From: a virus
DNA length: 46,788 nucleotides
Strand: one strand, 5' to 3'
Virus record (IMG/VR): IMGVR_UViG_3300032213_002773
Location: 1-46,788 of that record
The notes below the pieces were generated by a model, which saw nothing but the letters and a program-made list of their open reading frames with translations, ran no database searches and was not told the DNA's origin. Of this stretch, positions 24,047 through 28,675 are shown piece by piece; within the stretch, counting starts at the first letter, position 1, and every line of letters starts with the position of its first letter. Made by a program: the position numbers and the translations under genes.

Positions 24047-24080
24047 TTACCGTTACCGTTACACTACCGTTACCGTTACG
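24047..24080. repeat. CCGTTA tandem array, left copy
   Basis: Plus-strand TTACCGTTACCGTTAC, then ACTA, then CCGTTACCGTTACG: four CCGTTA units in two blocks. On the minus transcript it is leader sequence of the operon starting at 24016. A matching array is at 28655-28675. Confidence 0.75.
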
Positions 24081-24186: not shown

Positions 24187-24235
24187 AAAAAAAAAAAGGC
24201 GCACACAGCGTGTCGTGTGACACGCTATGTGCGCC
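24187..24235 (-). terminator. Strong rho-independent terminator of the amidotransferase operon
   Basis: A 17-bp stem with a single mismatch (24198-24214 and 24219-24235) and a 4-base loop, followed on the minus strand by 11 T (24197-24187). It follows the 71-residue gene at 24249-24464 and insulates the amidoligase region from the DNA-metabolism arm. Confidence 0.9.
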
Positions 24236-24248
24236 GATTGTCTTGCGA

Positions 24249-24464
24249 TTACACGCCTTCGATACGTGTGTTATTGCCTGCTAATTTTGCAAATGGGTTT
24301 GTGTAAGGTACGTCGTATTGCGCCTCGCTATCATGGTCGCCCACGTGGTGAAGAACGTTTGACACGGACAAACCGCCTAACGTAATCGTTAGGCGTTCGT
24401 CCATGTCGTAAAACTCGATTGTGACTGTTCCTGGTCGCATGACAAAGACTTGTTTTACTCGCAT
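24249..24464 (-). CDS. Small hypothetical protein downstream of the amidotransferase
   Basis: 71 residues from ATG 24464, ribosome site GAGAGGGGGTGTAATT; an upstream in-frame ATG at 24509 has no such site. Beta-rich start (VKQVFVMRPGTVTIEFYDM), then an LTITLGGLSVSNVLHHVGDHD segment. It is the last gene before the strong terminator. It could be a small binding partner or substrate of the amidotransferase/amidoligase pair, but nothing in the sequence proves it. Confidence 0.6.
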   Translation of the reverse strand: MRVKQVFVMRPGTVTIEFYDMDERLTITLGGLSVSNVLHHVGDHDSEAQYDVPYTNPFAKLAGNNTRIEGV

Positions 24465-24466
24465 AA

Positions 24467-24535
24467 TTACACCCCCTCTCGTGTGAAGAATCGTTTGACT
24501 TGCCACCAAAAACCGCGCTTGCTAGGCGTTACCAC
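24467..24535 (-). CDS. Possible 22-residue cationic peptide coupled to the amidotransferase stop
   Basis: GTG at 24535 overlaps the amidotransferase stop (GTGGTAA) and the frame ends two bases before the next ATG. The sequence is MVTPSKRGFWWQVKRFF plus TREGV, cationic with two tryptophans. Only GAGAG lies upstream as a weak ribosome site. The tight packing is suggestive, but the frame may be chance. Confidence 0.25.
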   Translation of the reverse strand: MVTPSKRGFWWQVKRFFTREGV

Positions 24536-25578
24536 GGCACTCTCGTGTACTTTTCTGTCGCTTGTTCTAACCCCCTCTCGCATATATCCTGAAAAACCAG
24601 ACGCAGTTCGTCGTATAAAAGCGAGTGGACGTCGTTCGTCCGAATAGCGTCCGTCAAGTCGCGGTAATTGCAACGTCTTACTAGCAACTCGCCTTCCTCG
24701 TATGTTAACCCGAAGTCGATGAGTTCCTGAATCATGTAGTCATCTTCGCGTTGGCGAAAATAATCCCTCGTCGAAGTCGTGGTATACGGGGTTGTGGTCG
24801 AGCCACCGTTAGCAATCGCGTATTTCGAGGCGTTGTGCGTACTGTAAAAGCGACGTTGCGGTGTAAACGTGCTAACCGCAAACTTGCCTGCTGAGTCAAT
24901 GTGAATGATTCGACCTTCCTCGACTCGCATAACCGTGTAATTGTCGCCCAAACCTGCTGACTTGAGTCCGTGTTTGACGATTGCCTCAGTCGAGCCGTAC
25001 ACATACAGGTTGTGCTTCTTGTAATACACCATGTGAATCGGCGAGTCGTTGCGAATGAGCCAGAAGTCTTCGTTTGATTCGAGTATCGAGAACGCGAACA
25101 TACCTTGTACGAGTTGACTCGACTCGACAACCGAGTTGATTGTCAACGTGTCGTCGCTCTGAGCGTATTTTTCGAGCAGTTGAACGGCAACATAACTGTC
25201 AGTTTCAATGTCCGTGTTTGGCAATGACTCGTCATAACGCAACTCGTAATCGTTGTCGAGAACGCCGTTGTGAGCGAGAGCAAACGTCGTCTTGCGTGTT
25301 GCACCGATAAACGGGTGGTTGTTTTGGTTTTTCCATTGTGTTCCTTGCGTTGTCGCACGTGTGTGACCGATAACCGACGTAACGCCTTTCGGAATGTCGA
25401 TAACGAAGTCAGTCGCAGGCACAGCCGCCTTAACCACGCACAGGTGGTTGTTGACGTTGTAAGCAATTCCTGTTGCGTCTGAGCCGCGTACCTGAGCCGC
25501 GACTGCCAATCCTTTTACAAGTCCGTTCGTGTTAATACCTTTGCTACCTCTGTTGATGAATCCGTATAATCCGCACAT
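24529..25578 (-). CDS. Class II (Ntn-type) glutamine amidotransferase
   Basis: 349 residues. Removal of Met exposes Cys2 (MCGLYGF) as N-terminal nucleophile. The rest of the glutaminase site is complete: RGSDATG (R31-G37), GHTRATTQG (71-79), HNG (103-105) and TDS (D127). It should release ammonia from glutamine. It lacks the sugar isomerase domain of GlmS and the synthetase domains of PurF or AsnB. The C-terminal ~75 residues are helical and unassigned, so ammonia must go to a separate acceptor enzyme. The neighbour upstream is an amidoligase, the natural partner. Ribosome site AAAGGAG. Function in the phage is inferred only. Confidence 0.88.
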   Translation of the reverse strand: MCGLYGFINRGSKGINTNGLVKGLAVAAQVRGSDATGIAYNVNNHLCVVKAAVPATDFVIDIPKGVTSVIGHTRATTQGTQWKNQNNHPFIGATRKTTFALAHNGVLDNDYELRYDESLPNTDIETDSYVAVQLLEKYAQSDDTLTINSVVESSQLVQGMFAFSILESNEDFWLIRNDSPIHMVYYKKHNLYVYGSTEAIVKHGLKSAGLGDNYTVMRVEEGRIIHIDSAGKFAVSTFTPQRRFYSTHNASKYAIANGGSTTTPYTTTSTRDYFRQREDDYMIQELIDFGLTYEEGELLVRRCNYRDLTDAIRTNDVHSLLYDELRLVFQDICERGLEQATEKYTRVPW

Positions 25579-25630
25579 AATTTGTCATTTCTCCTTTGGG
25601 TTTGTGTTTTGTGTATGTGTGTTAATGCGA

Positions 25631-25654
25631 AAACCACCCATTAAAGGGTGGTTT
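25631..25654 (-). terminator. Hairpin at the amidoligase stop (weak terminator)
   Basis: A perfect 9-bp stem AAACCACCC/GGGTGGTTT with a 6-base loop, overlapping the amidoligase stop codon. On the minus strand the right arm runs into TTTTCGC. Partial termination would reduce, not abolish, expression of the amidotransferase; it may also only protect the message end. Confidence 0.5.
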
Positions 25655-27224
25655 CCACGAACTCGACATCGTATTGTGAAAGCGGTGTCGGGTCGTCAAG
25701 CGTTGCAAGGTCGGTGTGAAGCATATTCTGCGTGTCGAACGACAGCGACTTTGACGTTGGGTGCGACTCGAATTTGACGATAAAACGTCGCGAATCCTGT
25801 CCGACGACACGAACAATTGACCCTAACTCGTAATAATGTCTGTTGTGACTGTTGTTGCCTATCACAACGAGGCTTTGTCCTAACACAATTTGCTTGGTCG
25901 GCAATGGTTTGAACTTGCGACGAGGCGTTTGCAATCTGTGTAGGTTACGTTGCGTCATGTAATCGTTCAACTCGGTGAAATTGGACACCTTCGCGAGTTT
26001 CACGACGGTTTGCCAGGACAGGTTGTTAACCGCAATGTCCTTGAGGTTCGCGAGTTGGCGCATAACGTCCATGAACTGAACAGACGCAAGGAAAGTATCG
26101 ACGTTTAGTGTACCACGGAACGCACGGACTTCGAGCGTGTGTCTGTGTAGCAGATTTACAATGCGATACTTCTCGCGAGAAGCAGTCGCTAGTTTGTCGG
26201 CAAACGAACGGTTCGTGTCGTCGTCGTTATACACGCCGTAACGGTCAGCCCAACGCTCGTAGTTGTAACGTGAACGACGAGAGAAAGTGAGAATTTGCTC
26301 GTAAAAACGCTCGAACAGGAACACGAAGTTGTCAACCGCTCTTTCGTTTTTGAAAGCCTTCTTGCTAACGTGAATATGCAAGCCGCACGTTTCAGTCTGG
26401 TGTGCGCGGAAGTGATTCGCAAGCGCAAAATCGAACGCTTTCTTGAACAGTTGCTTGTTTTCCGTGATAAACGCAAGTGTCATAGGGTGTGTGACGGCTT
26501 CAAACCCGTAGTTCGTTAGCGAGCCGTCTTCCTTGTTATACGTAATCGGGTAGTCCTCGTACTTCATGTTGTCGTCGAAGAAGTTCGCAACTGCAACACG
26601 ATTTGCCTGTCCCACGTTATTGCGACCATCTATCTCAATCTCACAACCGTAGAAAACTTGCGTGTCGCGTGGTTCACTAGGAAGCATGAAAAAGTACGTT
26701 TCAGGGCGATAATTGTACGGGTGTATACAGCAAGACTCATTCATGTTGAACGACGAATACTCGCAATCGTGTTCGCGGTAGCAGTATCTACACATAAATT
26801 CGTCGCAAGCACCACACTCGCGTTGGTCGTCGGTATGGTGAATCTCGTCGCACGTTTCACACGTGAACCACGAACCGTGGTTGTAATCCTCGACGGAAAT
26901 GTAACCGTGATTCGTAGTCGAGTACGTGTCGTCCTTGTGCCACCACTCGTCGTTGTACGTGTAACGGAAGCGGTCGTCGACAACATCTTCGTGAACCCAA
27001 CCTTCGGTCTTGACGTTACGCTGCGTCCAATAAGCGTGTGTGAAGTGGTCTTCGTGGTCTAGGACGACCTCGCCCCGACGCATATTGAAACTGTACTCGC
27101 AAATACGGAAATGCGCCTTAATGCAATCAGTACACGTAAGACCCTGCTCGGTTTCAAACAGACTTGCTCGTGGTAACACTACGTCGCACGTTTCACACGT
27201 AAACTCAATCGTCTTTTCTGTCAT
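25641..27224 (-). CDS. Amidoligase (COOH-NH2 ligase) with N-terminal zinc fingers
   Basis: 527 residues from ATG 27224 (GGAGA at 8 bases; a GTG at 27233 is too close). N-terminal CxxC pairs (C10/C13 and C31/C34), then a second cysteine-rich module around residues 122-155 (CETCDEI, ECGACDEFMCRYC). The core matches the phage/bacterial amidoligase family Amidoligase_2: YGCEIEIDG (E195, E197), NKEDGSLTNYGFEAVTHP (231-247), CGLHIHVS (H283, H285) and LEVRAFRGT (E365, R367). This is a glutamine-synthetase-like fold that joins an amine or ammonia to a carboxylate with ATP. The last ~90 residues resemble a small SH3/KOW-like barrel (GQSLVVIGN, GSIVRVVG). The substrate is unknown; zinc fingers suggest a protein or nucleic-acid target. 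Confidence 0.82.
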   Translation of the reverse strand: MTEKTIEFTCETCDVVLPRASLFETEQGLTCTDCIKAHFRICEYSFNMRRGEVVLDHEDHFTHAYWTQRNVKTEGWVHEDVVDDRFRYTYNDEWWHKDDTYSTTNHGYISVEDYNHGSWFTCETCDEIHHTDDQRECGACDEFMCRYCYREHDCEYSSFNMNESCCIHPYNYRPETYFFMLPSEPRDTQVFYGCEIEIDGRNNVGQANRVAVANFFDDNMKYEDYPITYNKEDGSLTNYGFEAVTHPMTLAFITENKQLFKKAFDFALANHFRAHQTETCGLHIHVSKKAFKNERAVDNFVFLFERFYEQILTFSRRSRYNYERWADRYGVYNDDDTNRSFADKLATASREKYRIVNLLHRHTLEVRAFRGTLNVDTFLASVQFMDVMRQLANLKDIAVNNLSWQTVVKLAKVSNFTELNDYMTQRNLHRLQTPRRKFKPLPTKQIVLGQSLVVIGNNSHNRHYYELGSIVRVVGQDSRRFIVKFESHPTSKSLSFDTQNMLHTDLATLDDPTPLSQYDVEFVETTL

Positions 27225-27384
27225 TTTGTACACTCTCCTGTTATTGTATAATGTGTGTTACTTGTTTGGGTTGTTGTACACAACCCAGATTACCAGGCGA
27301 ATTGTGATATACGACCATAGCAGAAAATCTGAAACATGGAACTCGAAGACAACCACCCCCTCTCGTGTTTTGTGTGTATGTGTA

Positions 27385-27939
27385 TTATGGCAAATCGACG
27401 AGTCCACCGTCACCATCACGTGCGAACCACTTATCGTCCTTATACACGTAATCGTATACGCCGTACCAAATGTCGTCGATATCGACACCGAAAAACTTAG
27501 CAATTTTGCTCGCGTTTGCGTAGGACAATGCCCAATTGCGCAACGCGACTTGCTTGATAAAGTGTTTACCTACGCCTGTTGCTTGCGCTATTTCGTTATA
27601 CGAATCGTCGATTGTGTGCTTTTTGAAGTTGTGTAACGTGCCTTCGATTGTATGCACTTTGTTCTTGTATAACGTTCGCTCGGCTGTGTAAACCTTGATT
27701 CGTTGCTGTAAATTGTTGTGCAACACTCGATTCTTGTAAGACGCTACGATTGCATCGTTCACTCTGCGCTTTTTCGGCTCGAAAAACGGAAGCGGCGCGT
27801 CCTCTAATACTCGACGAATGTGCAGTTCGCGTTTTACTTTGCGTAACTCTTCTTGCACTTTGTAAAGTTCGTCCGTGTGCTGGCGAGGTGCGTGGGCGGG
27901 TGCGGCTGTGCTGGTGCTGGTTTGTGCTTGTTCTGTCAT
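27385..27939 (-). CDS. HTH (XRE-like) protein with coiled coil
   Basis: 184 residues. A low-complexity Thr/Ala/Pro N-terminus, then a basic coiled coil (DELYKVQEELRKVKREL and later segments), then a C-terminal XRE-type helix-turn-helix: YNEIAQATGVGKHFIKQV, NASKIAKFFGVDIDDIW. It is the first gene of the amidoligase operon and is read away from the repeat-rich non-coding region. It could therefore bind the GTTAC/GTAATAC-type repeats there and at the promoters at 20.9 and 24.1 kb. Regulator or origin-binding protein are both possible. Confidence 0.6.
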   Translation of the reverse strand: MTEQAQTSTSTAAPAHAPRQHTDELYKVQEELRKVKRELHIRRVLEDAPLPFFEPKKRRVNDAIVASYKNRVLHNNLQQRIKVYTAERTLYKNKVHTIEGTLHNFKKHTIDDSYNEIAQATGVGKHFIKQVALRNWALSYANASKIAKFFGVDIDDIWYGVYDYVYKDDKWFARDGDGGLVDLP

Positions 27940-28654: not shown

Positions 28655-28675
28655 TACCGTTACCGTTACCGTTAC
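28655..28675. repeat. CCGTTA tandem array, right copy
   Basis: Plus-strand TACCGTTACCGTTACCGTTAC: three and a half units of the hexamer found at 24047-24080. The two arrays are about 4.6 kb apart and bracket the amidotransferase, amidoligase and HTH genes. Confidence 0.75.

Follow-up and report, generated by a model that had tools for sequence, protein, structure and literature searches.

A Co-Inherited Glutaminase–Amidoligase Gene Pair as a Putative Carboxylate-Amidating Enzyme of Phages and Mobile Elements

Do two neighboring phage genes, one coding for a glutaminase and the other for an amidoligase, make up a single enzyme, and if so, on what would it act? This question is raised by positions 24,249–27,939 of the IMG/VR virus record IMGVR_UViG_3300032213_002773, whose 46,788 nucleotides, possibly a fragment, were analyzed at full length and are referred to below as the window. 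An initial annotation, prepared from the DNA alone, had described at this locus a class II glutamine amidotransferase (GATase; P0001 below) preceded by an amidoligase with two Cys-rich zinc modules (P0002), and had viewed the two as a possible new modification system. Here, we report that the two genes stand together in many phage and bacterial loci, that the window copy is an ordinary, divergent family member, and that the two-part amidating enzyme is probably genuine and active.

Results

P0001 Is a Class II Glutaminase with an Intact Active Site

P0001 matches the Pfam family GATase_6 with 47 bits (cut-off 27) and contains each of the elements by which it had been recognized as a complete class II glutaminase, i.e., Cys2, RGSDATG, GHTRATTQG, HNG and D127. 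Across 146 aligned GATase sequences, residues C2, R74, H88, N104, G105 and D127 do not vary. No PDB sequence was retrieved at 1e-3 with P0001 as a single query; a profile of the GATase family reached GlmS and aligned with its glutaminase domain (1xff), with R74 and D127 falling on the glutamine-clamping residues. In GlmS, the equivalent Arg and Asp bind the alpha-carboxyl and alpha-amino groups of glutamine, and it is free glutamine that is clamped in this way. Judged by these residues, P0001 should be an active glutaminase. As had been suggested, no acceptor (synthase) domain was found in P0001 with Pfam or NCBIfam; the adjacent amidoligase is its likely acceptor partner. Additional Cys-rich elements occur among the GATases: the enzyme of phage Marvin (L003:7361-8260) has a Cys-rich C-terminal module of its own, and at least two CxxC motifs are present in 44 of 149 sequences.

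P0002 Belongs to the Amidoligase Superfamily

The match of P0002 to the Pfam family PF12224 (Amidoligase_2) is barely above the cut-off (23.1 bits against 22), and the same family is matched by all 70 aligned relatives of P0002 (E <= 0.01); P0002 also matches PHROG 16683 (E 7e-40). The GCEIEID, HIH and LEVRAFR motifs are found in the protein, and all 70 members share E195, E197, K231, D233, E242, H283, H285, N357, E365 and R367. The ExE, HxH and ExR elements are spaced as in glutamine synthetase (GS), and E195-x-E197, E242, H283-x-H285 and E365-x-R367 resemble the GS metal/ATP set, E129-x-E131, E212 or E220, H269-x-H271 and E357-x-R359. Placing E195/E197 on E129/E131 of GS is consistent with the alignment to 1lgr, since its start pairs residue 188 of P0002 with residue 122; the mapping to GS numbering draws on established knowledge and aligned ranges.

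The predicted model of P0002 has a mean predicted local distance difference test (pLDDT) score of 82, with values mostly >90 across the catalytic domain. Foldseek searches with this domain retrieved glutamine synthetase, YbdK, PafA and Dop (E 2e-4 to 6e-4 for PafA/Dop). By structure comparison with VIA, Z scores of 12.5 to YbdK and of ~12 to YbdK, GmaS, glutamate–cysteine ligase (GCS) and GS were obtained, at a sequence identity to YbdK, GCS and GS of 8–14%. When PDB sequences were searched with the amidoligase profile, LIM proteins were the only matches, and no solved PF12224 structure was found by sequence. We conclude that P0002, as initially annotated, belongs to the amidoligase superfamily and, going by its model, has a GS/GCS-like fold.

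The Two Genes Form a Conserved, Co-Inherited Unit

A single-sequence scan of IMG/VR with P0002 returned nothing, and relatives were collected with a profile of five amidoligase sequences. At least 577 were found in IMG/VR and 480 in GTDB genomes; the best 80 of the GTDB matches are mostly from Ruminococcus. The loci kept for comparison are the best matches, and the proportions given here apply to near relatives rather than to all of PF12224. A GATase gene on the same strand and <300 bp downstream of the amidoligase gene, i.e., in the order seen in the window, is present in 145 of the 165 kept loci (68/84 viral loci from IMG/VR and 77/81 genomic loci from GTDB). Seven of the amidoligases without such a GATase run out of space at a contig end. 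Locus L002 was scored as "upstream" via an overlapping stop-to-stop open reading frame (ORF); the annotated L002 GATase starts 6 bases past the amidoligase stop. No GATase was found in 26 control loci selected by terminase, and the sole terminase locus holding one is that of a sister phage of the window.

Pairwise distances between amidoligases correlate with those between the associated GATases (Mantel r 0.646, 50 non-redundant pairs; 0/2000 permutations as high, permuted maximum 0.204). The correlated distances point to co-inheritance, and the two proteins may also be in physical contact. Taken at the level of sequence, amidoligase and GATase are a real, co-inherited unit.

The same cannot be said of the other two genes that had been placed in an operon with the pair, one for a helix-turn-helix (HTH) protein and one for a 71-residue protein considered as a possible substrate or carrier. 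The reading frames of all four genes are open as described; neither of these two has a relative in about 190 loci, and both are missing from the sister phage. The comparison does not support a substrate or carrier role of the 71-residue protein, and the HTH gene is no conserved partner of the pair.

Several loci depart from the simple two-gene layout. The amidoligase of C. difficile phage AR1086-1 (L004:5737-6849) is without CxxC modules, and the gene that follows it resembles a nucleotidyltransferase. A second, shorter amidoligase-like gene lies near the terminase gene in sister phages (L006:4005-4847 and L167:531-1370), and tandem amidoligases are also seen in L009, L022, L023, L035 and L146.

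The Pair Is Accessory Cargo

The sister contig (L006/L166) has the same gene order as the window. The identity between the two is 39% for the amidoligase, 52% for the GATase, 77% for a downstream 236-residue gene product and 83–84% for the terminase. No amidoligase was seen in seven other contigs of the lineage, some of which are fragmentary. One contig (L174, 2700-9300) shares flanking genes with the window and carries other genes, one of them RadC-like, in this early-region slot. By these comparisons, the pair is cargo that diverges fast and that the phage's own lineage can do without.

The Ruminococcus copies look mobilizable, since relaxase, resolvase, integrase and DUF960 genes adjoin them; the DUF960 gene is directly upstream in 54/80 loci (L085-L164). 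Several Ruminococcus genomes carry more than one copy. Amidoligase-family genes are also present on the mycobacterial plasmids NZ_CP025548.1 and NZ_CP065286.1.

The N-Terminal Region of the Amidoligase Appears LIM-Like

Three C4 sites are the norm in the family, so the zinc architecture is not the rarity for which it had been taken. P0002 retains the first and the third site, plus C42, and the middle one is degenerate; the two complete CxxC...CxxC modules are those that had been noticed initially. A profile of the N-terminal region of the family matches LIM proteins (E 4e-6), and the Pfam LIM family is matched by 10 of 70 relatives, P0002 itself giving no LIM match. These results suggest that the Cys-rich region consists of LIM-like interaction modules. 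Because the zinc modules resemble LIM domains, a protein or peptide partner is favored over nucleic acid. Of the macromolecular targets that the zinc modules had been thought to indicate, a protein or peptide thus gains support and a nucleic acid loses it. No paper combining "LIM domain" with "amidoligase" was found in the literature searched, within which the LIM-like reading of the amidoligase N-terminus may be previously unreported.

Organization of the Locus and Its Surroundings

The four leftward genes form one operon, transcribed from the HTH gene through the amidoligase and glutaminase genes to the 71-residue ORF (Table 1).

Table 1. Features of the amidoligase–glutaminase operon (window positions).
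Feature	Position	Strand	Remarks
HTH-containing protein, 184 aa	27385..27939	(-)	Operon gene 1; weak HTH matches
Amidoligase_2 protein (P0002), 527 aa	25641..27224	(-)	PF12224 above cut-off; ATG at 27224, GTG at 27233 possible
P0002 zinc module 1 (C10, C13, C31, C34), LIM-like	27123..27197	(-)	Cys kept in 58-62/70 members
P0002 zinc module 3 (C122, C125, C145, C148)	26781..26861	(-)	From alignment; also C137 and C140, rare in the family
P0002 catalytic domain, residues 184-430	25935..26675	(-)	GS/GCS-like fold (predicted); E195-x-E197, E242, H283-x-H285, E365-x-R367
Class II (N-terminal nucleophile, Ntn) glutamine amidotransferase (P0001), 349 aa	24529..25578	(-)	Pfam GATase_6, E 3e-12
P0001 glutaminase core, ~residues 1-225	24904-25578	(-)	Remaining C-terminal part ~120 aa
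71-aa ORF	24249..24464	(-)	Last gene of operon; no family in family searches
Intrinsic terminator, strong	24198..24235	(-)	17-bp stem + T tract; closes operon

Exact GTAACG iterons (0 expected by chance) are present on both sides of the operon, at 24048-24079 and 28655-28675, and also in the sister phage (L006:5343-5360); they are possibly operator or origin sites. By the large terminase, the nearest named relatives of the window are Paenibacillus larvae podoviruses (38% identity). Megablast of the region against phages gave no match. The record also encodes a Glucosaminidase-family lysin, ThyX, a B12-dependent ribonucleotide reductase, DNA polymerase A and a C5-cytosine methylase.

Discussion

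The pair is not new: like the zinc modules, it recurs in well over a hundred loci, and the literature has discussed Amidoligase_2/GATase neighbors since Iyer 2009 (cited in PMC10580990 and PMC11318856). The two genes have been reported together in LUZ24-like phages (PMC3890496), phage tf (PMC3517423), RIO-1-like phages (PMC5498523), and OM43 phages and Marvin (PMC10580990). They have been proposed to alter the surface against superinfection, or to serve secondary metabolites or nitrogen metabolism (PMC10945688, PMC10580990, PMC11318856, PMC5498523). What the present survey yields is a testable two-gene unit, with the active sites located and the LIM-like modules as a hint at the target; its amidoligase occurs in hundreds of contigs from phages and genomes of gut bacteria, and the glutaminase adjoins most of the examined copies.

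The reading to which we lean, by a modest degree, is that the pair, in phages and mobile elements, works as a two-component enzyme that amidates a carboxylate at the expense of glutamine and ATP. The class II glutaminase would hydrolyze free L-glutamine with C2 of P0001 and release ammonia, which would reach P0002 directly or by diffusion. P0002 would phosphorylate a carboxylate with ATP-Mg at the E195/E197/H283/E365 site, and attack of ammonia on the activated carboxylate would give the amide. The N-terminal LIM-like modules would most likely hold the target and/or dock the glutaminase. A protein of the host (or of the phage) or a molecule that carries a peptide is the probable target. Phages and mobilizable elements carry the pair as an accessory, which would act against or upon the host. 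The general chemistry proposed initially, release of ammonia and its attachment to a carboxylate, is supported in outline. A more specific version, in which the LIM-like modules pick host proteins for a PafA-like ligase of GS fold and glutamine feeds a protein-amidating or protein-tagging system used in host takeover or protection from rivals, is offered as speculation that we think unlikely to hold.

Several points weigh against the amidating enzyme as described. Pairing alone is compatible with reverse use, the glutaminase-like enzyme taking off again the group that the ligase attaches. No demonstrated reaction for any PF12224 member was found in the published accounts consulted. There is no recognizable GATase adjoining the amidoligase of phage AR1086-1. 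When the zinc region was modelled alone, Foldseek ranked LIM tandems first, none of them significant. The zinc modules are partly degenerate in P0002 and more so in the sister phage, and zinc itself may for this reason not be essential.

Four other explanations were considered, given here in falling order of likelihood. The pair could act on the cell envelope, amidating or decorating peptidoglycan precursors at stem-peptide carboxylates and altering the cell surface in a way that keeps competing phages from adsorbing. Carboxylates of Gram-positive walls are amidated by host glutamine-dependent enzymes, and the Paenibacillus larvae relatives of the terminase are consistent with a Gram-positive host. 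Such a function has been proposed in print for phiEco32-like and RIO-1-like podoviruses, and the proposal is repeated in PMC5498523, PMC10580990 and PMC11318856; the cassette in question is, however, larger and comprises GATase, amidoligase, COOH-NH2 ligase, ATP-grasp and GGCT genes. GGCT (PF06094) had no match in our record, itself possibly a fragment, although the control did give one, and neither ATP-grasp nor GGCT is among the listed Pfam families (25 of 36) for 31 other window proteins. For the COOH-NH2 ligase (PF14395) there was no match, the control being equally silent. Since LIM-like modules would, in addition, be unusual for a wall-precursor enzyme, we consider an envelope function doubtful. 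Among 38 related records, the Pfam profile detected GGCT in 4; a regular-expression search for GGCT neighbors, whose pattern was too strict, had found none.

A writer and an eraser, with the amidoligase adding glutamate or another amine via a carboxyl group and the glutaminase-fold protein removing it in the manner of PafA and Dop, is a less probable arrangement. Both PafA and Dop came up in the Foldseek search with the ligase, and the residues by which the GATase recognizes free glutamine would be satisfied by a gamma-glutamyl-amine too; a standard glutamine-binding glutaminase that is strictly adjacent and co-inherited suits ammonia supply at least equally well. The odds are longer still for a metabolic helper that makes a small amide metabolite or aids nitrogen handling in infected cells. 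Host growth on nitrate or ammonium reportedly increased with a chronic phage whose gene set is related, a result that concerns the whole phage and not single genes (PMC10945688). The N-terminal modules, the rapid divergence (39% identity, compared with 83% in the terminase) and the occurrence in mobilizable elements suit a macromolecular target better. Zinc modules can bind nucleic acid, and the C5-cytosine methylase and nucleotide-synthesis genes of the record might speak for amidation of carboxylated DNA or tRNA bases. The profile of the zinc region matches LIM protein-interaction domains instead, and no base-carboxylating enzyme is among the Pfam families listed, which makes modification of nucleic acid very improbable.

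Comparison with Known Systems

The closest parallels to the window pair are found in the LUZ24-like phage UFV-P2 (ORF23/ORF25), the OM43 phages MEP401/402 and mycobacteriophage Marvin (gp105–gp106), where members of the same two families are adjacent or nearly so. The amidoligase is upstream in UFV-P2 and Marvin, as in the window (PMC3890496, PMC10580990), and Marvin gp105 has an N-terminal Cys-rich part like that of P0002. The window proteins are only ~25% identical to those of Marvin, and the degenerate middle zinc module sets the window apart from these phage relatives. The human fecal scaffold MT839723 and the Ruminococcus copies have the same architecture and order, Cys-rich modules and amidoligase followed by GATase; the Ruminococcus amidoligases are 28–37% identical to P0002 (tblastn), and their genomic neighbors (relaxase, resolvase, integrase, DUF960) differ from those in the window.

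With the podovirus "peptidoglycan modification cassette" the window shares the amidoligase and GATase, whereas LUZ24-like cassettes carry extra COOH-NH2 ligase, ATP-grasp and GGCT genes (PMC3890496). YbdK, glutamate–cysteine ligase and glutamine synthetase share the predicted catalytic fold and the metal/ATP residue pattern of P0002; to our knowledge, none of them has LIM-like modules. The Pup ligase PafA, which acts in protein tagging, and Dop have a GS-like fold, as predicted for P0002. They differ from the window system in that no Pup-like partner was found here and the donor would probably be glutamine-derived ammonia. MurT-GatD combines a Mur ligase with a class I GATase, protein families other than those of the window pair. 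In outline, this ligase with a separate glutaminase, which amidates peptidoglycan glutamate, nevertheless works much as proposed here for the pair (PMC3267633).

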